64,000 nt of DNA from NCBI GenBank assembly GCA_947177415.1, contig CAMWUK010000001.1, forward strand, positions 1 through 64,000, given 5' to 3'. Each line of letters opens with the position of its first letter. Position 1 is the stretch's first letter. The notes under the pieces are model-generated. The model searched no databases, was not told the origin of the DNA, and saw only the letters and a program-made list of their open reading frames with translations. Origin of the DNA: an uncultured Clostridiaceae bacterium. GTDB taxonomy: Bacteria > Bacillota > Clostridia > Lachnospirales > Lachnospiraceae. The position numbers and the translations under genes are program-made. Below are positions 13,143 to 62,895 of the stretch, piece after piece.

Positions 13143-13652
13143 TTATTCCATATGCGACGGTTCTTTTGACCTACAGAACGAAAACTGATTTATAACCAAT
13201 GCAATCACAATACCAACCGTGGTATCTATAATCCTTGCCATCCCAAAATCCAAAGGATTCCCATCACTTCCATGTGTCACGGTAATGCAAAGGAAAACAA
13301 CACACATAAGGAAAGTTCCCTTTTCCTGTTTTATCAGGACAGAAAAATTGATAATAGGAATAAGCAGAACGGATAATAAAAGGCATCGTAACACTTCATA
13401 TGGGACACAAAAGATATTCCTCTCAAAAACCAAAACAAACATCCCGCATATTCCACCGATCACTGTTGCCACCTCACGGTTAAATGCCTCACGGAAACTA
13501 TCCTCAGAAGTACGCTGAACGCACAGCACAGCAGCGATGGCAGCATAAAATGCCGTATCTGATTTTCTTACTATACCCGTCAGCAAACATAGGAATACTG
13601 CCACAACTGTTTTTAATGTGCGCCCACCAACTTTCAGACCGCTAATTTTCAT
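13143..13652 (-). CDS. Aromatic-acid-exporter/FUSC-like membrane protein
   Basis: Hydrophobic; VGGRTLKTVVAVFLCLLTGIVRKSDTAFYAAIAAVLCVQRT...GFRE-like FREAFNREVATVIGG. Confidence 0.7.
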   Translation of the reverse strand: MKISGLKVGGRTLKTVVAVFLCLLTGIVRKSDTAFYAAIAAVLCVQRTSEDSFREAFNREVATVIGGICGMFVLVFERNIFCVPYEVLRCLLLSVLLIPIINFSVLIKQEKGTFLMCVVFLCITVTHGSDGNPLDFGMARIIDTTVGIVIALVINQFSFCRSKEPSHME

Positions 13653-14145
13653 ATATGCCTTTCAGGGTATACTGCTCTAAGATATGCCCATCCATCTGAT
13701 GGTAAAGCTCATTCAACAGAAAGCCCGGTTCCAAATCAAGCATTTTATCCAAAGCATATACATGAAGTTCATATATGTGTGGTTTATCGGGTGGTGTCAT
13801 CCCGCCATAATAGGAAGAAAGCTCTACGGATTGTTCACCGCCCTGTATGCTTGTCCAGCTATTCCGTCCCTGCACAAAATCATCTGCCGTCTGGCTCTCA
13901 TTCTCTTTGATTTCAAAACGTGTTATATTTGCCGCCAGCCAGTGTATCCATGCAAATCCCCCTGTCACTGGATAAGCATCCTTATCCTCTAAGACAATGG
14001 CAAGCGATACTGTTTCCTTTGGTGCATTTTCCACTGTAAAAGGCAAAGAATAAGTAGGGATACCGTTTTCATTAAACTGTGTCCCATGCCCGCCATACTG
14101 AGGCCCAATTACCCCGCCTATAATACCACTGCTTGTAACATTCAT
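13642..14145 (-). CDS. YbhB/YbcL (PEBP) family protein
   Basis: ETVSLAIVLEDKDAYPVTGGFAWIHWLAANI; GMTPPDKPHIYELHVYALD. Confidence 0.9.
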   Translation of the reverse strand: MNVTSSGIIGGVIGPQYGGHGTQFNENGIPTYSLPFTVENAPKETVSLAIVLEDKDAYPVTGGFAWIHWLAANITRFEIKENESQTADDFVQGRNSWTSIQGGEQSVELSSYYGGMTPPDKPHIYELHVYALDKMLDLEPGFLLNELYHQMDGHILEQYTLKGIYEN

Positions 14146-14228
14146 CTTCAATAACCTCCCATTCGATTTTCTGATAATATTATAAACAGCGGTTCCCAAA
14201 CAGTAAATTACCCACTTTTTCGTGGGTA

Positions 14229-14594
14229 CTAATCCGGGACTACCCCTTTTTCCTGCAATATGTGTTCCATACCATTTGCCTTCAGATAATCAATCCCTAT
14301 ATGCTGCATGATCCTTAATGCCTCCAGTATTTCCATGCCCATATCGTTTGTGAGGGAATATTCTACATGAAGTGGGTATCCCTCATAAGATTTCTTTTCA
14401 ACAAATCCATATTCCGTTAATTCTTTTAGCTGCTCTAACAGCATTTTTTGTGTAATACCGTCTATATCACGTTCCAGTTTCGCTAAAGATGTAGCTCCAA
14501 GACGCAGCCGCCATAGAATAATGGGTTTCCATTTCCCCTTAATCATGTCATGTACCAGTTCCAAAGGGCATGTATATTCTGTGCGTATTTTCAT
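14229..14594 (-). CDS. HxlR-family transcriptional regulator
   Basis: CPLELVHDMIKGKWKPIILWRLRLGATSLAKLERDIDGITQKMLLEQLKELTEYG. Confidence 0.93.
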   Translation of the reverse strand: MKIRTEYTCPLELVHDMIKGKWKPIILWRLRLGATSLAKLERDIDGITQKMLLEQLKELTEYGFVEKKSYEGYPLHVEYSLTNDMGMEILEALRIMQHIGIDYLKANGMEHILQEKGVVPD

Positions 14595-14675
14595 AAAATA
14601 ACACTCCTCGCTTTCTCAGATACTAAAAAAAGGAACTTCTTTCAATACACGAGAAGTTCTCCTTTTTATTCCATA

Positions 14676-15680
14676 TTAAGATGTTACATCAAAACCCGTC
14701 CTCATAATGTTGCTGTTAGACATATCCTTTAATTGTCCGTTTTCAAACCCAATACTCAAATACAAATCCTCAATACTATTTACATCTTCCTTGGTAATTT
14801 GTTTTATATATTCTTCAAAAACATTGTATGCTACTCCCTTAAACTCTGACGGAATTTTGGACGATTCCTTAACACTTTTCTTGAATACATCTAAAATATT
14901 ATTTCCGTCTCTGTCTATAAGACCGTCTTTTGTTTGAATAAAATCCCGAATATCCAAGTTTGTGTATTCTCTTAACGTACTTGCTGCCATATATTTTGTC
15001 AATACATTTTTATCTATATTTGTACTTCCAATACTGTTTAGAATATGAAAAAATAACTCTTTTGAATTTCCATTTTCATTTAGCAGTGTTGCCATTTGTG
15101 ACATGATAGATTTATCAGCATTTCCTTCGACAGTAAGTTGATATGTATATGGATTGATAATAAAGGTAAAACTACCATTTACAAAAGAAGCCTGACTAAT
15201 TCCGTTATTTGTAAAAATATTATTGATTTGCTTATTCACGCATTGACGATTGTAGCTTTTTTTCTCACTGTCTGTTTCTGCATGAGGCGCCCCGTTCAAC
15301 CGTGGGTCAGTCATATTACTGCAATATCCAAACGCACTCATACTAAGCTCATTTTGATACATTGCGTTGCGTTCAGCAACAGTATATTTTCCATAATACC
15401 CTGCCAAACTATATTTTTGAGCTAAAGCATTTTGTAATTCCTCATAGCTTGAATATTTTGCACGATTATCCGCTCCTAAATCGTAATAAATATCCTCTAA
15501 TTTAACATACGCCTTATATAGTTCGCTATCTTTATTGCTATTATTTCCCTCAATTCTGTCCTCAACGCTCTCATATTTTTCTACCCACCCTGCTTTTTGG
15601 GGTTCAGATGTTGTATATCTTCCCTTGACATTGTAATAATTATAATAATGTGACCTTGCTTCAATTTCCACTGTTATCAC
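14676..15680 (-). CDS. Uncharacterised protein (DUF4885-like from memory)
   Basis: Long ORF; GYCSNMTDPRLNG...; family guess unverified. Confidence 0.6.
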   Translation of the reverse strand: MITVEIEARSHYYNYYNVKGRYTTSEPQKAGWVEKYESVEDRIEGNNSNKDSELYKAYVKLEDIYYDLGADNRAKYSSYEELQNALAQKYSLAGYYGKYTVAERNAMYQNELSMSAFGYCSNMTDPRLNGAPHAETDSEKKSYNRQCVNKQINNIFTNNGISQASFVNGSFTFIINPYTYQLTVEGNADKSIMSQMATLLNENGNSKELFFHILNSIGSTNIDKNVLTKYMAASTLREYTNLDIRDFIQTKDGLIDRDGNNILDVFKKSVKESSKIPSEFKGVAYNVFEEYIKQITKEDVNSIEDLYLSIGFENGQLKDMSNSNIMRTGFDVTS

Positions 15681-15716
15681 TCCTCAAAACCGTTTTTATT
15701 TCTTTCAAAATACATA

Positions 15717-16277
15717 TCATGCCCTCGCATCAAAGCCGCCCTGCACTTCCATCCCAGCAACACCAGCATTTATTTCCTGTCTTGCCGCACGAAACGCATC
15801 ATAGTAGGCCGCTTTCAAAGCCCCGTGTACTTCCGTCTCTGCTTTCGATTCCTTCTCATGCCAGCCCACACCTGCAGTATACGTCAATATCTCATCACCA
15901 TTCCCATCATACACATGGACTGAGGAACCTGTCCCTTCGGACTGAAACTTAGCCTCATACGGCTCGCCAAACAAGATACGCAGCCACCGCTCGTCAGCTT
16001 CCTTGATTTTCTTCATATCAGCCATATTGCCAGAACTCATAGCCTGATTAAGTTTTCCCATCAATGCCGCCCTGTCTGGTGCTACTTTGGCAACTTCGCT
16101 TTTCCGCAAAGCAAGGAACTTATTTCCCATATATACATTCTGCGCTGCATCTTCTCTGGCATATTCTGTTATCTTTTCCCGTAAGGAATCCGACAACTTC
16201 CATTCCTTCTTGGATGATGTCTTACCTGCTGCCGTGCTATTCGTCTGATGGCTTTTTGCTATTCCTGTAATATCCAT
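15717..16277 (-). CDS. Uncharacterised small protein of the DUF cluster
   Basis: MDITGIAKSHQTNSTAAGKTSSKKEWKLSDSLREKI... Confidence 0.65.
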   Translation of the reverse strand: MDITGIAKSHQTNSTAAGKTSSKKEWKLSDSLREKITEYAREDAAQNVYMGNKFLALRKSEVAKVAPDRAALMGKLNQAMSSGNMADMKKIKEADERWLRILFGEPYEAKFQSEGTGSSVHVYDGNGDEILTYTAGVGWHEKESKAETEVHGALKAAYYDAFRAARQEINAGVAGMEVQGGFDARA

Positions 16278-16315
16278 TTCAATCTCCTCTCACTGCTCCC
16301 CTGAAAACCGGGCAT

Positions 16316-16981
16316 CTATGAACACAACACCCCTAAAAGGGATTTGTACCTTTCCGTTTCATTTTTTATATCTTCAACAGTGACACCATAATACAAATAT
16401 ATCTTTTTGAACAGTTTCCTTAACTGTTTCATGGTTTTCTTCTTCCCGCTGAATGAACCGTCAAGCACCTGCCAGACAGTTTCCACCCCTATCCACATAT
16501 GGTCATTCTCTGCCCATTTAATCTCATATATGTGAAAATCCATAGGAAAGATATCATCCGCAATTTCCTCTATCATCCTGTTCCGCTCATGAATCTGTTC
16601 CAAAAACACCTTTAAGGCCTCCACATCCTCCCTGTCCGGTGGCTCCAAGTTCATCAGCTCTCCCACCAAATCCGGGCGGTGGCGCATGATAAGGGATGCT
16701 TTTAAGCTATTTCTCTGTTCCAGATAATTATGAGACTGCTTAGAAACCTCCACCGCGCCATACTCCTGTTTCAGCCATTGCACGACTTCTTCCAACGTAT
16801 GGGGATTTGCAGTAATCCGCTTTTTTATCCTGTTTCTTTTTATTTTGCGGAAATAATTCTGTATGCGTGTTGTAAGTCTTACCTTACCGCCTTTTCCTGC
16901 AATAAAAATACTTGTAGGCCCATCAGCTCCACCTATAATAGATACGCTGCCTGCACTCTTGCCCATATCTACATCTCCCAT
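16316..16981 (-). CDS. Uncharacterised protein with N-terminal SVSIIGGADGPTSIFIAGK segment
   Basis: ORF; GGADGPTSIF motif. Confidence 0.65.
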   Translation of the reverse strand: MGDVDMGKSAGSVSIIGGADGPTSIFIAGKGGKVRLTTRIQNYFRKIKRNRIKKRITANPHTLEEVVQWLKQEYGAVEVSKQSHNYLEQRNSLKASLIMRHRPDLVGELMNLEPPDREDVEALKVFLEQIHERNRMIEEIADDIFPMDFHIYEIKWAENDHMWIGVETVWQVLDGSFSGKKKTMKQLRKLFKKIYLYYGVTVEDIKNETERYKSLLGVLCS

Positions 16982-17344
16982 TCCAAAGTTAAACTCAACT
17001 CCCCAATTCCCCTATTTATGCTTTCATATCAAAAGATGGTTTCTCCTCCAGATAATTCGGCAGTTCCTCCATCTCTGTCCCTTGACCATTCTTTAGAGAA
17101 CGATACTCATTAAAATAAATTCCATAAAATTCCCTTTCTTTTTCCCGTTCAGCCGGAGTCCTCTCACAAGCCCATCCATACCCTGATCCAAGATAGGTCA
17201 GCACCTTTGTACCTTGATAATAAATGTCGGCGCCATATCCCCCTCCTCAGACCGTCCGAAAACCTCGATTTCCAGTGGTCTTTAGTCTATTTTTTGCATC
17301 AAAAATGCCAGATATTTTTCATGCGAAATTAATATCTGCCCCCA

Positions 17345-27854: not shown

Positions 27855-28463
27855 TCATTCGCTGTCGGCATTCCCCCTTTCACTGCCATAGTCCTTAACC
27901 GGGACACATTTGCAGACAAATCTTCTTGTCCCGTGGTCAGCACAGGTAAACAGGGTAAGCATCTCTGTACCGCTTTCTTCCGTTACCCATTCATCATAGG
28001 GATTTACCACCCGCATTTCTTCCACCGTATAACTGTGCGTCGTGCCTGCTTTCGTGGTTATCTTTACCTCCGTCCCTGTCCTGACACTGCTAAGGTTGGT
28101 AAAAAAAGTCCCCCGCCTGCTGCCGTTATGCCCGGCAAGGACACAATTCCCTTTGTCACACAAAGGTGCGCTGCTCTCCATGTGTCCGATCCCCTCATTT
28201 AACTGCACCGCGCCTGTCCCCTCAAATACCGGGTATTTTATTTTCAGGTCCGGTATCTCAACAATCCCGATGGCACCCTCCGCCAGATATGGGGAAGCCT
28301 TCTTTTTACGGTTGCCGGTTTCTTCACTCTCCTCATCTTCTTCCTCCTCAAACTGATTGATATACTGGTCTGCCCTCTGCTGCTCCCGCATCCGCAGAAA
28401 AAAAGGGACAGCCGCAATGGCTATCCCAATCAGAATTAACATGACTGTTTTTTTACTTCTCAA
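27855..28463 (-). CDS. Sortase
   Basis: N-terminal [24 protein letters not shown] (TLxTC-type). Confidence 0.9.
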
Positions 28464-49090: not shown

Positions 49091-50440
49091 TTACTGGTAG
49101 GCCCTTTCCGCCACCACAATCTCAATAGCCTGTGCCATTTCCTCCGCACTGAAACCGCTGTCAATCAGGTCGTTTATTTCCTGCTCAACAAGCCCTGCCT
49201 GTATCGCCATCCTGACCTGTTCCATCTGTGCAGGGTTTAACCCTTTGCCTGTCAGCTGCTTTATCAGCCCTGAACCCTGCCTGCCCCTGCCGAAAATCTT
49301 TTCCGCAAACGCCCTGATCCCCTCCGGCTTTCTGCGTACCGTCCTCTCTACCGGGATAAGGTGCTTTTCCCCATTTTTGCCCCTTATGGCAACAAGGAAA
49401 TCATTATTTTCCATATCCCCGTCACCGCTGTTTTCCGGGCCTGTTCCCTGCTGCTCCGGTATTTTCTGCCCTATGCCGGCAGCCTGCTGTCTCCCCGCCG
49501 GCTGCTGTTCCCCGGCAGTATTCCGTGCTGCCATTGTCTGTCCCGCTGCTGTCTGCCGCCCTGCTGCCCCTGACACTGCCATTTCTTCCATTTCTTTTAA
49601 CCTCTGACCCATCCCGTCTTTCTCTTTCTGGACTGCCTCAAGGTCTGCTATCAGTTGGCTTTTTTCCTCAAGAAGTGTCTGGTTCTGCTGATAGAAACGG
49701 TCCCGTTCCTCTAAGATGGAACGCTTTTCACTGTCATAGCCTGCTTTATCCTGCTCCAGTTCCCTGACCTGCTTTTCCAGGCTTTCCGCTTTTGTGCGTA
49801 ATTCCGCATTCTCTGACGCCTGCCTGTTATTGATTTCCTGCTGAGCCTCCAGCTCCTTTTCCCTCTGCCTTAGTTCTTCCGTCATGGAAGTAATCTTCTC
49901 CTGTGATAATTCTGTTTCCGGGCTCTCTTTTTCCCGTGCCGCCCCTGCCTCACGGTTTGCCTGATATACCAGTTTCAATGCCTGCTCCATGTCATAGGCG
50001 GTCAGGTTTTTAGAACCCACGTCTGACAGCTGCGCCACCGTCACGCCTTTGTCATAATAATTTGCCAGTAACTGCATCTGGTAGGGATTGAAACCTCCCC
50101 CTGCCAGCAGCCGCAGCAAATCCCCGTCACTGTCTGCCCGCATGATGGAAGAAAACTTCCTGCAGCGGTCCATCTGCCATCCCGCCTCCGCATACAGGGC
50201 AACCAGTTCTTTTGGGTAGCCAAGCTCCAAATCCTCCTTTGCAAGTTTCAACGCATCATCCTTACAGCCCTTTTCCTTAAACTCCATAATGGCGGATGCA
50301 ACCTGCGCATTCTCTGGTTTCCTTGTTTCCATATCCTGCCTCTCTTTCCTGTTTTTTTCACATACACTAATATTCCTTTGGGATTCCGCATGGGTAAACC
50401 TTCCCTCATCTCCTTGCTCCTCCGGATCGTTCCATGCCAC
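49091..50440 (-). CDS. Coiled-coil hypothetical protein of the element
   Basis: Long heptad region; helical repeats GGGFNPYQMQLLANYYDKGVT. Confidence 0.65.
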   Translation of the reverse strand: MAWNDPEEQGDEGRFTHAESQRNISVCEKNRKERQDMETRKPENAQVASAIMEFKEKGCKDDALKLAKEDLELGYPKELVALYAEAGWQMDRCRKFSSIMRADSDGDLLRLLAGGGFNPYQMQLLANYYDKGVTVAQLSDVGSKNLTAYDMEQALKLVYQANREAGAAREKESPETELSQEKITSMTEELRQREKELEAQQEINNRQASENAELRTKAESLEKQVRELEQDKAGYDSEKRSILEERDRFYQQNQTLLEEKSQLIADLEAVQKEKDGMGQRLKEMEEMAVSGAAGRQTAAGQTMAARNTAGEQQPAGRQQAAGIGQKIPEQQGTGPENSGDGDMENNDFLVAIRGKNGEKHLIPVERTVRRKPEGIRAFAEKIFGRGRQGSGLIKQLTGKGLNPAQMEQVRMAIQAGLVEQEINDLIDSGFSAEEMAQAIEIVVAERAYQ

Positions 50441-50844: not shown

Positions 50845-52293
50845 TCATTCCTGACTCCGGCTGTCCCTGCTGATTTCCTGTTCTGTTTTTTCCACCTGTC
50901 TGTTTCGTGTCCTTTCCAGGCTTTCCGTAAATTCCCGTATCATTTCCCCTGACATTTTTAACCTACGGCTGATTTCCCTCTGCCTCTGGTAAATGCCGCT
51001 GCCCTTATCCTTATATTTTTTGCGGAGTATTTCTGTTTCTTCCAGTGAATACCCCTCACTCCGCAACTGCTCCTCCAATGCCTGATAACGCAGGTGTTCC
51101 TTTTCAAAAAAGTCATCCCCTGCCTGATAACTCTTTTCTGCCGGGGCTAATTCCGACATCTTATCTGCCAGAGAAAACAGCGGCTCCATTTGCTTTTTCT
51201 CCCGGTACAATTCCCGCCTCTCCTTCCGGCACTCTGCCGCCTTTTCCTTCAGATTGTCCCGGACTGCTGCCAGTTCCGTTAGGGAATGGATTCCATTCTT
51301 TACAAGGAACAGATACTTCTCATGGACTTCCTGCATTTTGCGGATTTCCTCACGGTACTCCCACGCCCTGCTGTAAGGCAGCCTTTCCAGATGGCGCAGG
51401 CGGCATATCTTCGCATAATAGGTTTTCTGTATGCCGGTCAGCTTTGTCCTGCGTAAGAACTCATCCTTTGGCAGTTCAATGGTATGAGGGTTTTGCCCAC
51501 GGTCTCTTTTTGCATAGGTTTCCATGTTTTCAGAGTGGATTCTCTCCCGTATTCTTTCCTCCGTATAGTTATCCCCCATAGATTTGCACCGGCAGAACCG
51601 CTGCATCCCCTTAGGCCTGACCGCCAGATATTTATTCTGCTTAATGTCATAGCCCTTTTCCACCATAAGGTCAAGAAACCCTTCGAAGGAATCTGCCTGC
51701 ATGACACAGGCATCCACATCCCTCTGTATCATTTCCCGCCAGATGAATTTCCCGTCCCGGAACTCATTCCAGTCCTTATACCTCTCATTGCGTTTCCTGC
51801 CGTGTTCCTCTATATCTATGGTGGAAAGCCCGTATTCCTCACAAAGGCGGTTCGTGATGGGCTGTATCTTTTTTGCCCAGTCCCCCTTTTCGTAACGGTA
51901 CTTCCTTCCATTCAGGTAATTCACGCTGTTGAATATGATATGCCCGTGGACATGGGCGGTGTTGTCATGGACGGCAAGGACAGCCTCATACTCCTGCCCC
52001 AGATATTCATCCACAAACCTGCGTATAATCTCAAAAGCGGTGTCCGGGCTTACCTCCCCTTCCTCAAAAGAAATGATGAGGTGGTAGCCCTGCCTCTTGT
52101 CCGTCTTTCCATACTTCTGTTTCGTTGCCGCCATCTGTCCATATGCTTTCCCCGGCTGGCAGTTAATCCCCGTTACCAGCCTGCCGTCCTGCGTTTTCTC
52201 CCTGTCAAGGATATAGGAAACCGCCTGTTCCAGATGTTTCCCCGAAAACTTCACGCCGCTGTCATTTATGGTCAGAATTTTAGTGATAGCCAA
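50845..52293 (-). CDS. Relaxase/mobilization nuclease, MobP-type (TTG start)
   Basis: AITKILTINDSGVKFSGKHLEQAVSYIL; HDNTAHVHGHIIFNSVNYLNG. Confidence 0.9.
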   Translation of the reverse strand: MAITKILTINDSGVKFSGKHLEQAVSYILDREKTQDGRLVTGINCQPGKAYGQMAATKQKYGKTDKRQGYHLIISFEEGEVSPDTAFEIIRRFVDEYLGQEYEAVLAVHDNTAHVHGHIIFNSVNYLNGRKYRYEKGDWAKKIQPITNRLCEEYGLSTIDIEEHGRKRNERYKDWNEFRDGKFIWREMIQRDVDACVMQADSFEGFLDLMVEKGYDIKQNKYLAVRPKGMQRFCRCKSMGDNYTEERIRERIHSENMETYAKRDRGQNPHTIELPKDEFLRRTKLTGIQKTYYAKICRLRHLERLPYSRAWEYREEIRKMQEVHEKYLFLVKNGIHSLTELAAVRDNLKEKAAECRKERRELYREKKQMEPLFSLADKMSELAPAEKSYQAGDDFFEKEHLRYQALEEQLRSEGYSLEETEILRKKYKDKGSGIYQRQREISRRLKMSGEMIREFTESLERTRNRQVEKTEQEISRDSRSQE

Positions 52294-52603
52294 GAGCCGC
52301 CACCACCCTTTCCATTTCCTCATTCAGTTTCCGCATATAGGCAACCAGACGGATTTTGTCTGACTCCCGGTACAGTCCCGAATTATTGTTATGGACAATC
52401 TCATTGATATTGACGCCGATCCGGTTCACTTCATTGATAAGGGCTTTCAACCCCTGCCTCACTTCCGGGTAATCGTTCGGCTTCTGCGTTATCAGCAGAC
52501 GGAAATAATCGGATTCCTTCATTCCCGCCTCTTTCGCCTTATCAGAGAAAATCCCCGCATCATGGGCAGTCAGACGGAAATGCTTTACAACCTCCTTTGC
52601 CAT
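52280..52603 (-). CDS. mobC: MobC-like relaxosome protein
   Basis: VKHFRLTAHDAGIFSDKAKEAGMKESDYFRLLIT...EVNRIGVNINEIVHNNNSG. Confidence 0.9.
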   Translation of the reverse strand: MAKEVVKHFRLTAHDAGIFSDKAKEAGMKESDYFRLLITQKPNDYPEVRQGLKALINEVNRIGVNINEIVHNNNSGLYRESDKIRLVAYMRKLNEEMERVVAALGYH

Positions 52604-53284
52604 CTACCTCATCCTTTCCCTTTCCTGCCTGCGCTGCATAAATTCCTGTACGCTTTCTTTTTCCCCTGCGCTCCTTTCCGCTCTGCCCTGGCTGTATATC
52701 TTCATTTTTTCCCGCACTCCTTCCGGTATCTCCCCCAATGCAAGAGTAATTACTTCCATTGCACACTCCACTGCAATCTGCTCATACTTTGTCTGTTTAT
52801 ACAGCCCGTCCAGCACTTCCTCCTGCTGTTTCAGAATGCCGTGTGCGTCACTGAACCGGTTATAGTCCTCCTGGCAGTCCGGATTTTTCATGCCGTCCTC
52901 CATCTCGTCTATCAGTTCCAGATTCCACTCACATACATCGTGTATGGCATCATCTATGGAATATGGCCGGTACTCCGGGGATTCCTCCCCCATATCTTTT
53001 ACCACCAGTTCCTGATTACGGACAGCCAGTGTCATATTATGCTCTTTCAGATAGTCCAGAATGATTCCCGCCTCACTCTGTCCCATGCTTACCCCTGATC
53101 CTGCCAGATGTAGCCACATAACAAGCTCACCGGGCATATTTACTTCAAGCACTTCCGTTCCCATGCTCCCTGCACCTCCTGTTTTCATTTCCTTACCTGT
53201 CTGTTTTTTATCCTGCTGCAAATCCTCCCTGCCCCCGAAACCTTTGGCTCCCTTGCACTCCCAAAGGTTTCGCCAGATACGCAT
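52604..53284 (-). CDS. Conserved ICE hypothetical protein (DUF6017/DUF6100-type guess)
   Basis: ORF upstream of mobC; likely internal start. Confidence 0.6.
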   Translation of the reverse strand: MRIWRNLWECKGAKGFGGREDLQQDKKQTGKEMKTGGAGSMGTEVLEVNMPGELVMWLHLAGSGVSMGQSEAGIILDYLKEHNMTLAVRNQELVVKDMGEESPEYRPYSIDDAIHDVCEWNLELIDEMEDGMKNPDCQEDYNRFSDAHGILKQQEEVLDGLYKQTKYEQIAVECAMEVITLALGEIPEGVREKMKIYSQGRAERSAGEKESVQEFMQRRQERERMR

Positions 53285-53347
53285 TTTGTGTCACAAAATG
53301 CAAGCCTGCCAATGGCCCGGCTTTCTGGTCAGGGGAGTAACCCCTGA
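53281..53347. other. oriT: Candidate oriT: two hairpins upstream of the mob operon
   Basis: GCATTTTGTG-T-CACAAAATGC (53281-53301) and TCAGGGG-AGTAA-CCCCTGA (53329-53347). Confidence 0.5.
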
Positions 53348-53389: not shown

Positions 53390-53578
53390 CTACACCATTC
53401 CTACACCGCTTTGGGCATTTTCTACACCATTCCTACATCATTTTCCTGCTTTCCTACACCATTTCTACACCATCAAAAAAAGGCTGTCCGAAAAGCCTAC
53501 ACCATTCCTACACCATTTTTTGCATTTTCTACACCGTTCCTACACCAAAAATCCCGAAACCTACACCATTTCTACATC
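53390..53578. repeat. Six-unit phased iteron array CTACACCATTCCTACACC
   Basis: 18-bp units at 53390, 53422, 53454, 53497, 53529, 53561; each has two CTACA(C/T)C half-sites 11 bp apart. Confidence 0.85.
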
Positions 53579-54537
53579 ACTCTGGCAGTCTCACGGGCTT
53601 TCTCCTGCTCTTTTGCTTTTTTCATCTCCACATTCCACTGGTTGAAGTCCTTATACGGTTCCGGGGGAGTGAAAATGTCCACCAGATAACCCTTGTCCCC
53701 GTACTTTCTCCACAATGCCTCTGCTGCTTTCCGCCCCGGCCCGTCATTGTCAAGGCAGAACACGATTTTTTCCGTTTCCGGGTGTTCCGCAAGGAATGTT
53801 TCCAGCGGGGCATCCGCCAGCATCCCAAGCGCTACCATGCTTGCCCTGTCCTCCGGGAACATCGTGATATAACTCATCAGGTCGATTGCTGCCTCAAACA
53901 CAAATACTTCTTTGCTGTCCCTGTAATGGAAGTGGAAACCGTACCGCTTGTCATTGCCTGCCACGTCACACTTGAAGCCTTTCCCATTCTTATCAAAGAC
54001 ACCCCGCATACTGGCAAACTTCGGCACGCCGTCCCTGTCCGTCCCCACAAAAACAATGTTGTGGTAATTCTTCGCCTCATATAAAATCCCTTTCCTCACA
54101 AAGAAGTCAATGACCGGCCGGGCAATCCCGCACTCATGCTCCAGATAACGGTACAGATAGGCATTGCTCCCTGCAAACTTCGGCAGTACAAACGGCTTTT
54201 TAGTTTCCTCTCTTTCCCTTGCCGGGGCAAGGTTCTGAATGTCCCTGACGCTTTCCTCCCTCCGGTATCCCGCAAAATCCAGCAGCCAGAACACCGCCTC
54301 TTTCACATCCAGCCCCGCAAACACCCGTAAGAAGTCAATCTGGCTGCCGCCGTTCTCCCCTTTGTCATACCGCCTTGAGAAACGGCACCAGTGGCTCCTG
54401 TTATAAATGCGGATGGAATCCATTTCTTTCAGTGTATGGTAGTTCCCGATCCTTTTTACGGTATAGCCCAAATGCTCCGCCACCCTGCACAAATCAACCT
54501 GTTTGGCAAGTGCCAGCTCATCCGCTGTAAACCTCAT
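53572..54537 (-). CDS. TOPRIM/DUF3991-type primase-like protein
   Basis: MRFTADELALAKQVDLCRVAEHLGYTVKRIG; FEAAIDLMSYITMF; KIVFCLDNDGPGRKAAE. Confidence 0.88.
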   Translation of the reverse strand: MRFTADELALAKQVDLCRVAEHLGYTVKRIGNYHTLKEMDSIRIYNRSHWCRFSRRYDKGENGGSQIDFLRVFAGLDVKEAVFWLLDFAGYRREESVRDIQNLAPAREREETKKPFVLPKFAGSNAYLYRYLEHECGIARPVIDFFVRKGILYEAKNYHNIVFVGTDRDGVPKFASMRGVFDKNGKGFKCDVAGNDKRYGFHFHYRDSKEVFVFEAAIDLMSYITMFPEDRASMVALGMLADAPLETFLAEHPETEKIVFCLDNDGPGRKAAEALWRKYGDKGYLVDIFTPPEPYKDFNQWNVEMKKAKEQEKARETARVM

Positions 54538-55076
54538 CTTCCTCCCCCTCTCTCTGCCACCTTTGCCGGGCTGTCCCATTCCAGCTGACGGTAATCAGTC
54601 TGGTATGCCATGCACGGGTTTTTTACCAGCCCTTTTTCGTGGAAACTGAAATACCGGCTGTTGTCCCCGCCGACAATCACATGGTCCACAAGAGGAATCC
54701 CCACCAGTTCACATACCTGCTGCATCCGGTGTGTCAGCCGCACATCTGTTTCTGATGGTAAAAGGTTTCCGGAAGTGTGGTTGTGGCAAAGGATTATTTC
54801 TGCCGCATTTGACAGGATACCTGATTTCAGCAGTTCCCTCGGATGTGCCATTGAATTATTTAAGGAACCGACACTGGCAAAATTACAGTTAATCGGTGTT
54901 CGGTCCGCCTTCAGGTTGATGACACACACCACCTCCCTGTCCATTTCACACAGTTCCTGCCCCACTAACCTAACCGCATCCTCTGCTGTATTGATTTCTG
55001 TCCCTGACAAAATGGGGACATCCCGGACCAACCGTACAGACACGACTTCCAGTGCAAAGTCATTCTCCTTTCCCAT
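54534..55076 (-). CDS. radC: RadC-like JAB-domain protein
   Basis: ILCHNHTSGNLLPSETDVRLTHRMQQVCELVGIPLVDHVIVGG. Confidence 0.92.
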   Translation of the reverse strand: MGKENDFALEVVSVRLVRDVPILSGTEINTAEDAVRLVGQELCEMDREVVCVINLKADRTPINCNFASVGSLNNSMAHPRELLKSGILSNAAEIILCHNHTSGNLLPSETDVRLTHRMQQVCELVGIPLVDHVIVGGDNSRYFSFHEKGLVKNPCMAYQTDYRQLEWDSPAKVAERGGGR

Positions 55077-56265: not shown

Positions 56266-59200
56266 TTATGCTCTTTTTTTCTTACGTTTCCTTCCATACA
56301 GCACACCGCTGGCAATGCACACACCGCCTAATGCAGCAAACATCCACGGATGATAGTTTCCGCCCGTCTGCGGCAGCCTCGGCTTGTTCGGTTTATTTTT
56401 CAGTTTCAGTGTATAGACCACTGTCTCTGTTGCGCTGTCATCATACTGTAACAGAACCTCATGCGGGGTATCATCAAGGATATAACCCTCCGCAGCCTTT
56501 GTTTCCACGATATAATATGGTATATCTTCCCCAAAAGTGCCGTCTTTGTTATAAGTGCAGATGTCAAGCAGCCCTGTCTCCGCATAGCCTGTCTTGTCCG
56601 TTACCAGCGTGTCCAGTTTCTTCCCGTCCTTATTACGCAGTTCAAAGGTTACTCCCTTTAACGGCTTTCCGGTTTTGCTGCAGGTTTTGTAAAGTGCAAT
56701 CTTTCCTTTTACCCTTTCATCGGTCATGGCAACCTTTTGGATTTCCCCTGTTTCCTCCACGGTAAAATCCACTTCATTTGCAATCAGGTAACCGTATGGC
56801 GCTGCTGTCTCCCTCAAGGTGTAATCCCCTGCCGGGATTGCCTCCAGCCGGTACGGTTTCCCATCCGTTTTCCATGAGGCGTACACATTCCCATCGGAAT
56901 CAATGACCTCCAGTGTAGCCCCCGGCAGCTCTTTCCCTGTCGTAATATCCGTTTTCGACACCTCCACAATAATCGGTGTGTCTTTCATCTCCAGTTCCTT
57001 TGCCACAGTTGGTGTGGCAGCCATTTCCTGCGTATAGGAGAAATCTACGTCATACACCGTTTCATCCAGCAGATACCCCGCCGGGGACTCCACTTCTTTC
57101 ACATAGTACAGTCCAAGCGGCAAATCCGCCTCAAACACTGCCTTGCCGTTTTCATCAGTCACAGCCGTATCCACAAGGTCATCCGCTTTTACAAGGACCT
57201 CCCCTGCTGCACTCAAAATATCCTCTTTTGTATAAATGCCATAGGTGGCTCCGGCTACCGGGTAGGCGGTTACACCGTCCGTCTTAATCAGTGACAGCTC
57301 CGGTTTTACCCTCGCATTGACAAACTCTGCCTCCCCATAGATTATCTCTGTATGCTCATCCGCATAGGAAAGGGTAATCTCCTTTGGCTCCTCACAGATG
57401 GCAAAACCCTTTGGCGGCTGTACTTCCACCACCTGATATTTTCCAAGCGGAAGATTGTCAAGGGAAGCCTCCCCTTTCTCATCCGTGGTAAGCGTTGCGA
57501 CAATGGCCCCCTTGCTTGCCGGGACACCGCCTATAACCTCCAGAATGCGGTTGCCGTTTTCGTCTGTCTGGTGGTCCGGGGTATAAATATCCTCCACCGC
57601 AATGACATGGAACACTGCCCCTGCAAGCGGCTGTTCCTCATAATTGAAATCCACACTCCTGTTTTCATCGGTAAGCTCACTGAGGATACGGTCAATAATG
57701 GTGTCATATACAATGGAAGTTAATACCTCCCCTGATTTTTCAATGGTAATGCTGCCCTTGACAGGCTGGTTCTCAACCACTACCTCAATGACCGGATCGC
57801 CGTCTATATCTTCTGAAACCTTGAGTAACCCATCCGTGGTAACTTCCAAAGGGAAACTCTCCTCTGTAATGACATACCCCTCCGGCGCTGTAATCTCCTC
57901 CACCGCATAATTGCCGTATTTCAACTGCAAAGGCGTGGTTATAGTCCCTGTTTCATCCGTGGTAAATTCACTGATTTTTTTATCCCCTACCTTCTGCTCC
58001 ACATACTCATCCGTATCCGTATTTTTAATCTTAAAGGTCACACCGGGCAGCAGTACGGTATTCCCATTTTCAGCATCTTTTTTCACAATGCGGATGTATG
58101 CCTTAAACGGCCCGTCATTGAACACCCGCCACTGCTGCGGCTCTCTGGAATCCTCCGTAACTGTCACGGTAAAATCTTTGGTTTTATACAAATCCTTTGG
58201 CACCTTTGTTTCCCTTACCAGATATTTTCCGTAAGGCAGCTCCTTTGAAAGTGCATAGCCCTTTTCATCGGTCACAAGCACGTCATGGGTTTTTGCGTTG
58301 TCCCATCCGTTCTTATCAATATCCGACTGTAACTTTACAGTAAATTCTGCACCCTTGACATAATCCGTCTCCGTGCTTGCGCCATCGGTAGACACTTTGA
58401 TAATCTCAAATGCCTGCTTCTTTACTGTCTCCACAACCTTTGTATTGAGGGAAATGTCATGGTGGGTATCCTGCGCCTCACGGAAATTAACCGGGTAAAT
58501 GGTTTCATCTAACAGGTATCCCTCACTTGCCTCTATCTCACGGATATAATAATTGCCAAAGTACAGGTTCCCAAAGTTAAACTCTGCCTGCTCCCCTGTC
58601 TTTACCGTGGCAAGCAGTGCGTCCTTCTCTGCCGGGACGCCCGTTGACACAAAATCCGTCCCCTGTGTGCTTGTAATGTTGTCATTCCCCGCATAGGTTA
58701 CTGTACCTCTCCCATCCGGGTAGACAATGGTTTCCGCCGCATAAAGCCCATAAGTTGCCCCGGACAGTTTCGCATCCCCCTGTGGCTCTGCCCCGGTCTC
58801 CTTATCCTCCTTTTTCGCTGCCACATCACAGCGGATCGGTGTATTCTCTGCACTGAAATCGGAAATCTCCCCGTAATCCGGCGTCACTTCCCACACCTTG
58901 CCGTCATCACGGTAACCGTCCGGGATAACAACCTCCTTCACATAATATTTATCCTGCGTTTTCACAAACTTTTCAGAGGCAGCGGCATCCAGATCCTCAT
59001 CATAATAGAATACCGGCACTTCCTCTTGTCTGGACTCATCCACACACACACGCTTTGTGCATCCGGCATCGGTAAACACCGCAAACCCGGCACCCTTTAC
59101 AAAATTTCCTGATTCCGAGTCCGTCTTTACCACCATGACGCCCACCGTATCAGGGTACTCCTTAACTTCCATCTTTTTTCCCTGCTGTGTTACTTTCCCG

Positions 59201-61071
59201 TCACTGTCATAGAGGGTAAAATACTCCAGCCCCACGGGATAGACGGTCTCATCCCTCTGGTATCCCGACGCCTCCTTAACTTCTTTCAGGTAATAAGTGC
59301 TCTGTGTCAGCGTCTCTTTCCCAGACAGTGCCTGACCGTCTGTATTTGTTCTTCCAAGTTTGCACAGCAAATCCGTACACTCTGCATCTTCATACAGATA
59401 ATAGGTTGCCCCCGGTACCGGCCTGCCATTGTATACGTTTGTCTTATGGAGTTCAAACCTGCCCTCCTTAAATTTGGAAACCACTTTGACGCTTGCCGTC
59501 ACGGTTCCCGGCTCAAACTCCTCCAGAAAGGTAATCTTCTGCTGTGACACCACTGTAGGCGTCCATTTCCTCCCGCCTTTTTCCTTAGACTTTGCGGTTG
59601 CCGTCAGCTTGATTGTGCTGTCCGCCGCAACAATCTTGTCCATTGCCTCCCCATTGCAGTACAGGTAAAAGTTGGAAGAAGGCTTGTCTGCGTCTGTCTG
59701 TGCCACGCAGATGTCATACTTCTTCAAATCGGAATCGTCCTCAATGTCACTGGCATCCGTTTTCAGCTCACCAACGGTCAAACCGTTCGGCTGTCCTGTG
59801 ATTTTATAGGAAACATCGGTAATGCTCCCTGTTTTGCTACGGACAAACTTCTCTTTTGAACGGTACAGCCCATCCCCCATGTCCTGCCATTCCGTCTTTT
59901 TCGGGGAGATTGTATAAGTGATGGACTTTGTCACGCCGGTTGCCTCGTCATACTCGTCCTCATCATAATTTTTTGCATCCGCTACAAGGGCAGCTATTTT
60001 ATTATAAACGCTGCTGCCGTTGTTGTAATAGCTTAACTTCACTTCCCCATTCAGCACATGGATTGACGCACCGGTAATGAAGTAATCGGCTGAGGCTGAA
60101 CCTGCGGAATACTTGCTGTTGTGGCAGGTCTCATTTAACTTTCTCGCACCGTTTACCATGCAGTAAGTGATTTCCGGCTTAATGCTGCTCTTGGAACTGG
60201 AGGCTCCCACGGTTCCATTCGTGGTGTTCTTGTTCAGGTTCAGGCAGTAAACCAGATGGTTGTGGTAATCCCCGGACTCAGAAATATATTTAATGCCCAT
60301 ACTGTGACCGCAGTATTTCGCATAGCCACTGCATGACACTTTCATGCTGTCCTTGTTTGAAGGATTTGCCGCTGCCTTTAACACCGGGGCAGAAGCCATC
60401 TGGATCATCATGGTATCCCCTGCACTGAAGGTTTCCATCTCTCCCTCTGACAATAGGCTCTGTCCACCAGCCTCCCCATAAGCGGGTTCCTCCTGTTCCA
60501 GCGCACCATCTGATGGGGAAACCTGCCTGCTCTCCTCTCCGGGGGCAGGTTCTTCCTCCCCGCTGTTTTCTTCCCCTGTTTCTGACTGTCCGCTGCCGGA
60601 TTCCCTGCTTTCCTCCACCGCTGTCTCCGGCTCACGCACGGATATGGTCCTACAGATAAGATAAGGAGTTTTACCACTTACCGGTTCTGCCTTGTAATAA
60701 GTGGCATAATCCCCTTCCTTATCCCCATCAAAAGAACCCTGCTTTGCATAATAGCTTACCTTGACGGCCTTATCATCGTAGGAAATCCCATCAAAGGACT
60801 GTTCCACATCAAACCCATAGCCGACAGCCACAATAATGTCCTCTGCCGCTGCAATCTCTGCCGGCTCCAAATCCGGCCTGTCCGTTTCGTTATAAAGCAC
60901 CGGCTCCTGATCCACTTCTGCCTGGCTGTCCCCATCACTGCCCGCCGCCACATCTGCATCCGGTCCGGTTGCATTGGCATAAGCGGCAGTGGGAAGTACA
61001 GCCCCCACAGCCAGGACAAGAGCCATTACCAGCGCCATAACCCTTCTCAATCTCTTTTTTGTCATATACAT
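56266..61071 (-). CDS. Large SpaA/Cna-B repeat pilin-like adhesin, sortase substrate
   Basis: Signal peptide (MTKKRLRRVMALVMALVLAVGAVLPTAAYA); ~9 Cna-B-like repeats; LPQTGG + TM + RKRKKKRA. Confidence 0.93.
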   Translation of the reverse strand: MYMTKKRLRRVMALVMALVLAVGAVLPTAAYANATGPDADVAAGSDGDSQAEVDQEPVLYNETDRPDLEPAEIAAAEDIIVAVGYGFDVEQSFDGISYDDKAVKVSYYAKQGSFDGDKEGDYATYYKAEPVSGKTPYLICRTISVREPETAVEESRESGSGQSETGEENSGEEEPAPGEESRQVSPSDGALEQEEPAYGEAGGQSLLSEGEMETFSAGDTMMIQMASAPVLKAAANPSNKDSMKVSCSGYAKYCGHSMGIKYISESGDYHNHLVYCLNLNKNTTNGTVGASSSKSSIKPEITYCMVNGARKLNETCHNSKYSAGSASADYFITGASIHVLNGEVKLSYYNNGSSVYNKIAALVADAKNYDEDEYDEATGVTKSITYTISPKKTEWQDMGDGLYRSKEKFVRSKTGSITDVSYKITGQPNGLTVGELKTDASDIEDDSDLKKYDICVAQTDADKPSSNFYLYCNGEAMDKIVAADSTIKLTATAKSKEKGGRKWTPTVVSQQKITFLEEFEPGTVTASVKVVSKFKEGRFELHKTNVYNGRPVPGATYYLYEDAECTDLLCKLGRTNTDGQALSGKETLTQSTYYLKEVKEASGYQRDETVYPVGLEYFTLYDSDGKVTQQGKKMEVKEYPDTVGVMVVKTDSESGNFVKGAGFAVFTDAGCTKRVCVDESRQEEVPVFYYDEDLDAAASEKFVKTQDKYYVKEVVIPDGYRDDGKVWEVTPDYGEISDFSAENTPIRCDVAAKKEDKETGAEPQGDAKLSGATYGLYAAETIVYPDGRGTVTYAGNDNITSTQGTDFVSTGVPAEKDALLATVKTGEQAEFNFGNLYFGNYYIREIEASEGYLLDETIYPVNFREAQDTHHDISLNTKVVETVKKQAFEIIKVSTDGASTETDYVKGAEFTVKLQSDIDKNGWDNAKTHDVLVTDEKGYALSKELPYGKYLVRETKVPKDLYKTKDFTVTVTEDSREPQQWRVFNDGPFKAYIRIVKKDAENGNTVLLPGVTFKIKNTDTDEYVEQKVGDKKISEFTTDETGTITTPLQLKYGNYAVEEITAPEGYVITEESFPLEVTTDGLLKVSEDIDGDPVIEVVVENQPVKGSITIEKSGEVLTSIVYDTIIDRILSELTDENRSVDFNYEEQPLAGAVFHVIAVEDIYTPDHQTDENGNRILEVIGGVPASKGAIVATLTTDEKGEASLDNLPLGKYQVVEVQPPKGFAICEEPKEITLSYADEHTEIIYGEAEFVNARVKPELSLIKTDGVTAYPVAGATYGIYTKEDILSAAGEVLVKADDLVDTAVTDENGKAVFEADLPLGLYYVKEVESPAGYLLDETVYDVDFSYTQEMAATPTVAKELEMKDTPIIVEVSKTDITTGKELPGATLEVIDSDGNVYASWKTDGKPYRLEAIPAGDYTLRETAAPYGYLIANEVDFTVEETGEIQKVAMTDERVKGKIALYKTCSKTGKPLKGVTFELRNKDGKKLDTLVTDKTGYAETGLLDICTYNKDGTFGEDIPYYIVETKAAEGYILDDTPHEVLLQYDDSATETVVYTLKLKNKPNKPRLPQTGGNYHPWMFAALGGVCIASGVLYGRKRKKKRA

Positions 61072-61153
61072 CCTCCATTCATGTCTGATATTCTGTTTCC
61101 TGCGGATATTCCCTGCCAGCACATACACCGGGCATACCCCGGCATCTGTGCAG

Positions 61154-61226
61154 AAAAAAAGCACGCCTGTTTTCATTCAGCGTGCCTTTTCAACCCATAA
61201 AGCCGGTCCGCATACCGGGCTTTCCC
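61154..61226 (-). promoter_or_regulatory. Terminator-like hairpin plus second hairpin in the adhesin leader
   Basis: Minus strand GCACGC...GCGTGC followed by TTTTTTT (61154-61185); second AAAGCCCGGT/ACCGGCTTT hairpin ~61200-61226. Confidence 0.6.
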
Positions 61227-61486: not shown

Positions 61487-61924
61487 CTAACTGTTTTCAC
61501 TCCAGCCCATTACCTTATCCATGATGTCCGGCATCCCGCTAATATCTGCAACCCCATCTTCCTCCATGTCCCCGGTCTCCATCTCCTCGCCGGGAAGAGG
61601 CGCCGGGGCTGCCTGCCCTGCCACGGCATTGCCCAGGACAATGTGGATAATCTCCTGCAGCAGCTCCCTCTTTATCTGTTCTTTCATGTCAGACAGCCGC
61701 ATTTCCAGATAGGCAGGCGTTACTTCTTCTGGCAGCCCATCCTCATTCCCATCCCCTGCCTCCAGCGCATTATAGTACATTTCCAGCGCATCCATGACCA
61801 CCTGGTTCTTTGATTTCCCGCCATTCAGCTTATTGTCCTCAAACTTTTTCAGCAACTGGACATGCTGCCTTTTTTTCATGGAAAAACGTATCGAAAACTG
61901 ACGGAACAATTCCCCATAAGCCAT
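61487..61924 (-). CDS. ParR-like RHH DNA-binding protein
   Basis: RFSMKKRQHVQLLKKFEDNKLNGGKSKNQVVMDALEMYY directly after a ParM-like gene. Confidence 0.7.
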   Translation of the reverse strand: MAYGELFRQFSIRFSMKKRQHVQLLKKFEDNKLNGGKSKNQVVMDALEMYYNALEAGDGNEDGLPEEVTPAYLEMRLSDMKEQIKRELLQEIIHIVLGNAVAGQAAPAPLPGEEMETGDMEEDGVADISGMPDIMDKVMGWSENS

Positions 61925-61935
61925 TCCAATCCCCC

Positions 61936-62862
61936 CTATCCGATCTTACGTTTCTGTGACTGTGCCAGATATGCATTCCCAAGCATTTCATATCCTTTTG
62001 CGTTTGCTTTCACATCCTCAATATACTGGATATTCTTCTGCGCCAGTCCGCCAAAGCGTTTCATCACTCCTGCACCGCCGCCCACAAAGATAATCTGCGT
62101 CAGGTCCATGTTATAGCCAAGCTCCCGGAGGTTGTGGTAAATCTTATTACAGTAATCACGGATTTCCTTGACAATAATCCCCTGATACTTCTCCGGCAGG
62201 TCTCCCCCGCCGTTTACCATGACTTTCTGAATATCATACTCGTCCACCTCTGCGTTTAGCTGCCTCACACACTCCTTGTTAATCTGCTGTATGCAGGTAA
62301 TAATCCCATGCGGCTGTGTCACGCACGCTGATTCATCCGGCAGATGGCTGATAATCGGCATAATGTCCACCGTCCATGAGCCAATATCCACCACAAGCTG
62401 TTTCTCCGGGAATTTATCAATCCGGTCAATCACTGCCGCATAGCATTGTGGGTAGACGCATACATTCTCAATGAAAATATGGTACTTCTCTTTCTCAAAG
62501 GTAAAGGTAACTTCCTTTTTCTTTGACAGGTAAGAAACAAAATCTTTCTTCTCGTCCCCGAACCTTGTCAGCGGAAGCCCCACCGCCAACAGCACATGGG
62601 CTGTCTTTCTGTTTCTGATCTTTAACTCCTTTGCCACTGCTGCCAGTGTCAGCATATAATAATTTTCATCTGTTACCTTTGTGTCTTTGACTTCAAGACG
62701 TTTGCTGCCAATCTTGTAATACTTCCCGCCAAACTCCAGTAGGTTCTCTGTAAATGCCGGCTCCGTGCTGATCTCCTTACAGCCCGATGTAAATACCTCA
62801 TGCACCGTTTTCATGCCAGACCAGCCGTGGTCAATCCCAATCACTTCAACTTTGTTATCCAT
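61936..62862 (-). CDS. ParM/StbA-like actin-family protein
   Basis: VIGIDHGWSGMKTVHEVF; VVDIGSWTVDIMPI; IIFVGGGAGVMKRF. Confidence 0.88.
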   Translation of the reverse strand: MDNKVEVIGIDHGWSGMKTVHEVFTSGCKEISTEPAFTENLLEFGGKYYKIGSKRLEVKDTKVTDENYYMLTLAAVAKELKIRNRKTAHVLLAVGLPLTRFGDEKKDFVSYLSKKKEVTFTFEKEKYHIFIENVCVYPQCYAAVIDRIDKFPEKQLVVDIGSWTVDIMPIISHLPDESACVTQPHGIITCIQQINKECVRQLNAEVDEYDIQKVMVNGGGDLPEKYQGIIVKEIRDYCNKIYHNLRELGYNMDLTQIIFVGGGAGVMKRFGGLAQKNIQYIEDVKANAKGYEMLGNAYLAQSQKRKIG

Positions 62863-62895
62863 TTTGAATGTCCTCCTTTTCATACAATCAGCTCC

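Follow-up and report, generated by a model that had tools for sequence, protein, structure and literature searches.

In type II (actin-like, ParMRC) partition systems the centromere, parC, usually lies upstream of parM; the ParR site of R1 requires two 11-bp repeats, parC-B of Clostridium perfringens has two 8-bp repeats 3 bp apart, and the specificity of ParR for parC determines incompatibility in C. perfringens plasmids (PMC9426499). Functional links between partition and transfer are already known for R1 (PMC4949242) and R388 (PMC3098194), and a precedent for a common neighborhood comes from the SXT/R391 integrative and conjugative elements (ICEs), in which srpC shares an intergenic region with the origin of transfer (oriT) (PMC4489591). 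Here we describe a repeat array at positions 53390 to 53578 of a 64,000-nucleotide stretch of DNA (the window; contig CAMWUK010000001.1, assembly GCA_947177415.1) from an uncultured Clostridiaceae bacterium, placed between the gene for a DUF3991/TOPRIM primase and the oriT of a Lachnospiraceae-type ICE. Sequence comparison indicates that this array is likely the parC centromere of the element's own type II partition system, and the known ParR sites share the size scale of its units.

Structure of the repeat array

The array consists of six 18-bp units, all six of which fit CTACAYCNTTYCTACAYC with no mismatches. In the order of the gene strand (minus) these are, by motif match, unit 1 (53561 to 53578), unit 2 (53529 to 53546), unit 3 (53497 to 53514), unit 4 (53454 to 53471), unit 5 (53422 to 53439), and unit 6 (53390 to 53407, GGTGTAG-GAAT-GGTGTAG), with unit-to-unit spacings of 32-32-43-32-32 bp, exactly as given in a preliminary description made from the window's sequence. 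From the open reading frame (ORF) coordinates, unit 1 overlaps the stop codon of the gene for the primase-like protein (53572 to 54579, minus strand; PF13154 and PF13155). Read along the gene strand, each unit has the form GRTGTAG-RAAN-GRTGTAG and is built of two 7-bp half-sites (CTACAYC on the top strand) that are direct repeats in the window's site class; a 4-bp spacer sets them 11 bp apart. The two half-sites and their distance had likewise been described correctly. No further match to CTACAYCNTTYCTACAYC is present in the window even at three mismatches, at which 100 shuffles gave a mean of 1.03 matches, a maximum of 4, and never 6. There is no other copy in the 4.63-Mb genome with one mismatch allowed, and a phage collection gave no match. 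No description of the array was found in the freely readable literature that was searched.

The 12 half-sites sit on a 10.70-bp lattice (R=0.995) that was matched by 0 of 5000 arrays with random spacing, and the units are therefore placed on the same face of the helix, as had been anticipated from their spacing; this one-face helical phasing of all of the units is real. The central 43-bp gap is a whole number of turns and keeps the two triads of units in phase. Within it is a terminator-like hairpin with a T-tract (53481 to 53498, minus strand), found by pattern match and with a weak fold, which probably ends the primase operon and may explain the greater width of the gap.

Arrays in related elements

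A primase search of genome contigs yielded 30 related loci. In the near relatives (primases 78 to 99% identical) the array mostly starts at the same point on the primase stop and mostly holds the 32-32-43-32-32 spacing or one close to it; locus L017 has nine units arranged as three triads, and in another (L013/L014) each unit comprises three half-sites, which fall on the lattice seen in the window. GATATAG replaces the GGTGTAG half-site in four loci, in essentially all units. In distant elements (primases about 55 to 65% identical) the same interval holds an array unrelated in sequence, often with the same plan. Among the relatives this plan is of two triads at 31 to 32 bp with a central gap of 43, 54, or 64 bp (4, 5, or 6 turns), as illustrated by GAACTTAAAAAGTAAGACCA at 32-32-64-32-32 (L028), TGGTAGGAAAAAGTCC at 32-32-54-31-32 (L092), GTAGGAAACCTACTTA at 32-32-54-32-32 (L094), and TGTTAACAAAATCTGC at 31-31-53-31-31 (L034). 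Twelve central gaps (43 to 64 bp) all come close to a whole number of 10.67-bp turns (R=0.97), a fit reached by 0 of 200,000 random sets, with a P value that is approximate because some of the 12 lineages are related. Of the two kinds of conservation among relatives whose absence was to count against the interpretation in the preliminary description, that of spacing is seen and that of sequence is not, the sequence changing together with ParR.

Across the elements the array has up to nine phased units over about 190 to 300 bp and adjoins the same oriT block. In a blind repeat scan of 15- to 20-kb regions, the primase-oriT array took first place in 21 of 23 elements, and no conserved array of comparable quality came up next to parMR. 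In the remaining two elements, L090 and L093, the repeats of the primase-oriT interval are more degenerate, and the L090 half-sites still fit 11/21-bp steps. A few arrays are off plan, with 22-bp steps in L038 and irregular spacing in L023, L026, and L037, and the L077 array is split by an insertion of ∼3.7 kb (13446 to 17115). The units are palindromic in many relatives (L092, L094, and L038; for example, TGGTAGGAAAAAGTCCTACCA), as opposed to the direct repeats of the window's class. The window's own genome carries another ICE of this family, L090 (G000:C13), with a ParR that is 31% identical, a ParM in which the search flagged one in-frame TGA, and a different, degenerate array of GTGCAGGCA half-sites at 11/21/12/21/55/21/21/11/21 bp.

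Covariation of the repeats with ParR

The ICE codes for an actin-like partition ATPase, ParM (61936 to 62883, minus strand), which matches PF17989 (45.1 bits; cutoff, 26.3) and the ALP12 structure (E=1.6e-6) and has plasmid homologues annotated as ParM/StbA. Directly after ParM in the elements examined is an ORF of 137 to 160 amino acids (aa), one of which has an internal deletion and is ∼132 aa; in the window it codes for a ParR-like protein (61487 to 61924, minus strand) with a conserved C-terminal tail, ISGMPDIMDKVMGWSEN, which is proposed as the array-binding adaptor from its position and from class covariation. The distance from parMR to the array is ∼8 kb. ParM was found wherever the fetched regions extend far enough, and the prediction that the array-bearing L092, with no ParM in the first region, has one was borne out by a genome search that located it ∼21 kb away on the same strand.

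The near relatives constitute a natural experiment, with two site classes on reassorted backbones. Nine elements, six with GGTGTAG (class A) and three with GATATAG (class B), allow 84 possible labelings; several proteins at the far end of the ICE had too few copies for this test. ParR has 30 columns with residues disjoint between the classes, rank 1 of the 84 labelings, compared with none in ParM, one each in the primase, RadC, MobC, and a 186-aa protein, two in the relaxase, three in DUF5688, and 0 to 9 in the other testable ICE proteins. Mean pairwise identities within class A, within class B, and between classes are 74/75/53% for ParR, 92/92/91% for ParM, 85/89/85% for the primase, 95/97/96% for MobC (between-class range, 93 to 98%), 88/89/88% for the relaxase, 82/82/81% for RadC, 75/84/73% for the 186-aa protein, and 54/56/55% for DUF5688. 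In trees, a single class change suffices for ParR only. One-clade tests reject the grouping of class B for the primase (P=0.019), RadC (P=0.009), and relaxase (P=0.044) and do not reject it for ParM (P=0.087) or the 186-aa protein (P=0.12); given these rejections, the genes have been reassorted while ParR and the array stayed coupled. Of the element's proteins that were tested, ParR alone has a sequence class that clearly tracks the repeat class, and it is because the repeats covary with ParR and with no other tested protein that we take the array to be a ParR-bound centromere. Compared with distant elements that have unrelated repeats, ParR is ∼29% identical and the primase 62%.

The class-separating residues of ParR include positions 9 (Q/H/N to G) and 11 (S/T to P/L) in the N-terminal FxIRF segment, and the last 20 residues contain none. 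Ribbon-helix-helix (RHH) proteins contact bases through an N-terminal strand, and Arc likewise uses alternate strand residues. The sequence layout of ParR looks compatible by eye with an RHH fold, in which FSIRF would be the DNA-contact strand, and the class-invariant tail would fit contact with the conserved ParM.

Three types of binder had been suggested at the outset, and of these the ParR-like partition protein is favored by class covariation; a replication initiator in the form of the primase, bound to iterons, and a relaxosome accessory protein in the form of MobC are both rejected, as neither covaries with the repeat class. An OmpR/PhoB-type 7-4-7 box, prompted by the half-site layout, was dropped once ParR had been singled out, and there is no such regulator among the ICE ORFs scanned.

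Proposed function and alternatives

The most likely account of these sequences is that a partition centromere has moved to the transfer origin, its helical architecture being kept and its sequence exchangeable. ParR, probably as a dimer of dimers, would occupy the two half-sites within a unit, and with the units on one helix face it would build a compact platform, where the conserved C-terminal tails would capture a ParM filament by its end; such filaments would then pull apart copies of the excised, replicating element. With the centromere several kilobases from parM and between the primase gene and oriT, the segregation and transfer machineries would assemble on neighboring DNA. We infer physical binding by ParR, a function in segregation, and any effect on transfer, and a role in transfer through ParR is possible because oriT is adjacent. 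A broader and more tentative proposal is that a family of clostridial ICEs moved its centromere onto oriT as a fixed helical scaffold, 3+3 sites separated by gaps of whole turns, whose sequence is swapped with ParR, such that the ParR-array pair might act as an identity code for coexistence and as a docking link between segregation and the relaxosome or type IV secretion system. The view that specificity sets incompatibility fits the window's genome, which holds L090, with its divergent ParR and array, as well as two further ParM-type genes.

Several observations count against a ParR-bound centromere. With only nine elements, the smallest attainable labeling P value is 1/84, and the class test includes two near-identical ParR pairs (up to 98% identical in class A and 96% in class B); a protein other than ParR, encoded at 49091 to 50332, has eight class columns and ranks 2 of 84. 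The RHH fold of ParR is not confirmed by Pfam (no match), by a PDB profile search (best E=1.2, an antitoxin), or by a single-sequence AlphaFold model, which is poor (pLDDT, 56), and hhalign of the ParR profile against MobC found nothing. The array is not upstream of parM, the usual place of parC. Lastly, the Enterococcus plasmids pEG81-1 and pEF7150-3 (L042 and L043), whose optrA/fexA region includes the primase-oriT-MobC-relaxase block of this ICE family, have arrays (spaced 32-32-64-32-32 in L042) with no match to ParM or ParR within the fetched 41 kb, and it is possible that an array is useful without ParR, as on these plasmids; we read them as probable fragments carried along with the mob region.

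It is unlikely that the array is mainly a relaxosome accessory site, with ParR or another protein, bound next to oriT, bending the DNA or bringing the relaxosome to the secretion channel, and with partition as a side function or lacking altogether. In favor of this reading, only ∼90 bp separate the array from the inverted repeat of oriT in the window, and in relatives too it adjoins this oriT block; ParM and ParR of R1 stimulate the relaxase TraI and transfer (PMC4949242); and StbA of R388, which binds repeats near oriT, trades off stability against transfer (PMC3098194). However, MobC, the classical accessory candidate, is conserved across the site classes, parR comes immediately behind parM, and the array and ParR are exchanged as a pair regardless of the relaxase and MobC. 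A relaxosome role would be plausible only as a second function. Replication iterons, bound as a vegetative origin by an initiator such as the adjacent primase, are highly improbable: origins of this kind typically have helically phased direct repeats and the array touches the primase gene, but the primase ignores the repeat class (one diagnostic column, with class B rejected as one clade), it retains ∼62% identity to elements with unrelated repeats, and there is no Rep initiator among the element proteins scanned with Pfam. We attach very little weight to an operator or terminator region whose sole role is transcriptional control between the primase and mob operons, even with a terminator-like hairpin in the central gap and many ParRs also repressing their own operon, since six to nine phased units over about 190 to 300 bp are too large for a simple operator, the array is at the end of the primase gene and ahead of oriT, and a promoter search gave a single weak promoter-like site, about the shuffle expectation.

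Genomic setting

Along the minus strand, the module runs ParM, ParR, adhesin, DUF5688, RadC, DUF3991/TOPRIM primase, array, oriT block, 186-aa protein, MobC, and relaxase, with the array between the oriT/mob operon and the primase gene as first described; the ICE also encodes a coupling protein and a VirB4-like ATPase (Pfam). The oriT core (53272 to 53301, minus strand), recognized by sequence and kept in relatives, contains a 21-bp inverted repeat, GCATTTTGTGACACAAAATGC, and then a nic-like sequence, GTATCTGGC, which resembles IncP-type nic regions and which we take to be nic. Between oriT and mobC is the gene for the conserved 186-aa protein (52604 to 53164, minus strand), which has no assigned function and is kept in nearly all relatives, followed by those for a MobC/NikA-like relaxosome protein (52280 to 52603, minus strand; PF21983 and PF05713) and a MOBP-type relaxase (50845 to 52323, minus strand; PF03432). 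The adhesin, encoded between ParR and DUF5688, is a SpaA/LPXTG surface protein of 1636 aa (56266 to 61176), and a sortase is encoded on the ICE at 27855 to 28442. A 36-bp tandem repeat (3.5 copies) is at positions 1 to 126, and a response regulator (479 to 1066) is outside the ICE part of the window.

Implications and comparison with known systems

This proposal gives a testable function to a repeat array that recurs in gut Lachnospiraceae ICEs and is also in the optrA/fexA region on Enterococcus plasmids. It would be an example of partition specificity exchanged while the rest of the element stays nearly constant, and it makes natural paired site classes available for studies of ParR specificity. 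Partition-conjugation coupling in ICEs becomes directly testable because the proposed centromere and oriT are about 90 bp apart, and, if true, a ParR-array code would let related ICEs coexist in one cell.

Chromosome-encoded ParMs are similar in that ParM/ParR genes are present on Firmicutes chromosomes with fast-diverging ParRs, although that study, in its accessible part, covers filaments and describes neither an oriT-adjacent centromere nor ParR-repeat covariation (PMC12270681). In R388, too, direct repeats (the stbDRs of StbA) lie next to oriT, in two sets with an 11-bp period, and act in both stability and transfer, but StbA is not an actin-partnered ParR, and each set consists of five 9-bp repeats at the stb promoter (PMC3098194). 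SrpMRC of the SXT/R391 ICEs is a type II partition system on an ICE, with srpC in the srpM-mobI intergenic region that is shared with oriT; it is gamma-proteobacterial, and the accessible text describes no triad layout (PMC4489591). The ParMRC systems of R1, pSK41, and C. perfringens pCW3-like plasmids share with this locus the actin-like ParM, a small, fast-diverging ParR directly after ParM, a repeat array that is the centromere there and probably is so here, sites of two half-repeats about 11 bp apart, and specificity that differs between otherwise similar elements (PMC9426499). Unlike in those plasmids, the window array is ∼8 kb from parMR and between the primase gene and oriT, the 3+3 layout recurs with its units stepped by 32 bp and its central gap measuring 4 to 6 turns, and the carriers are integrative elements.
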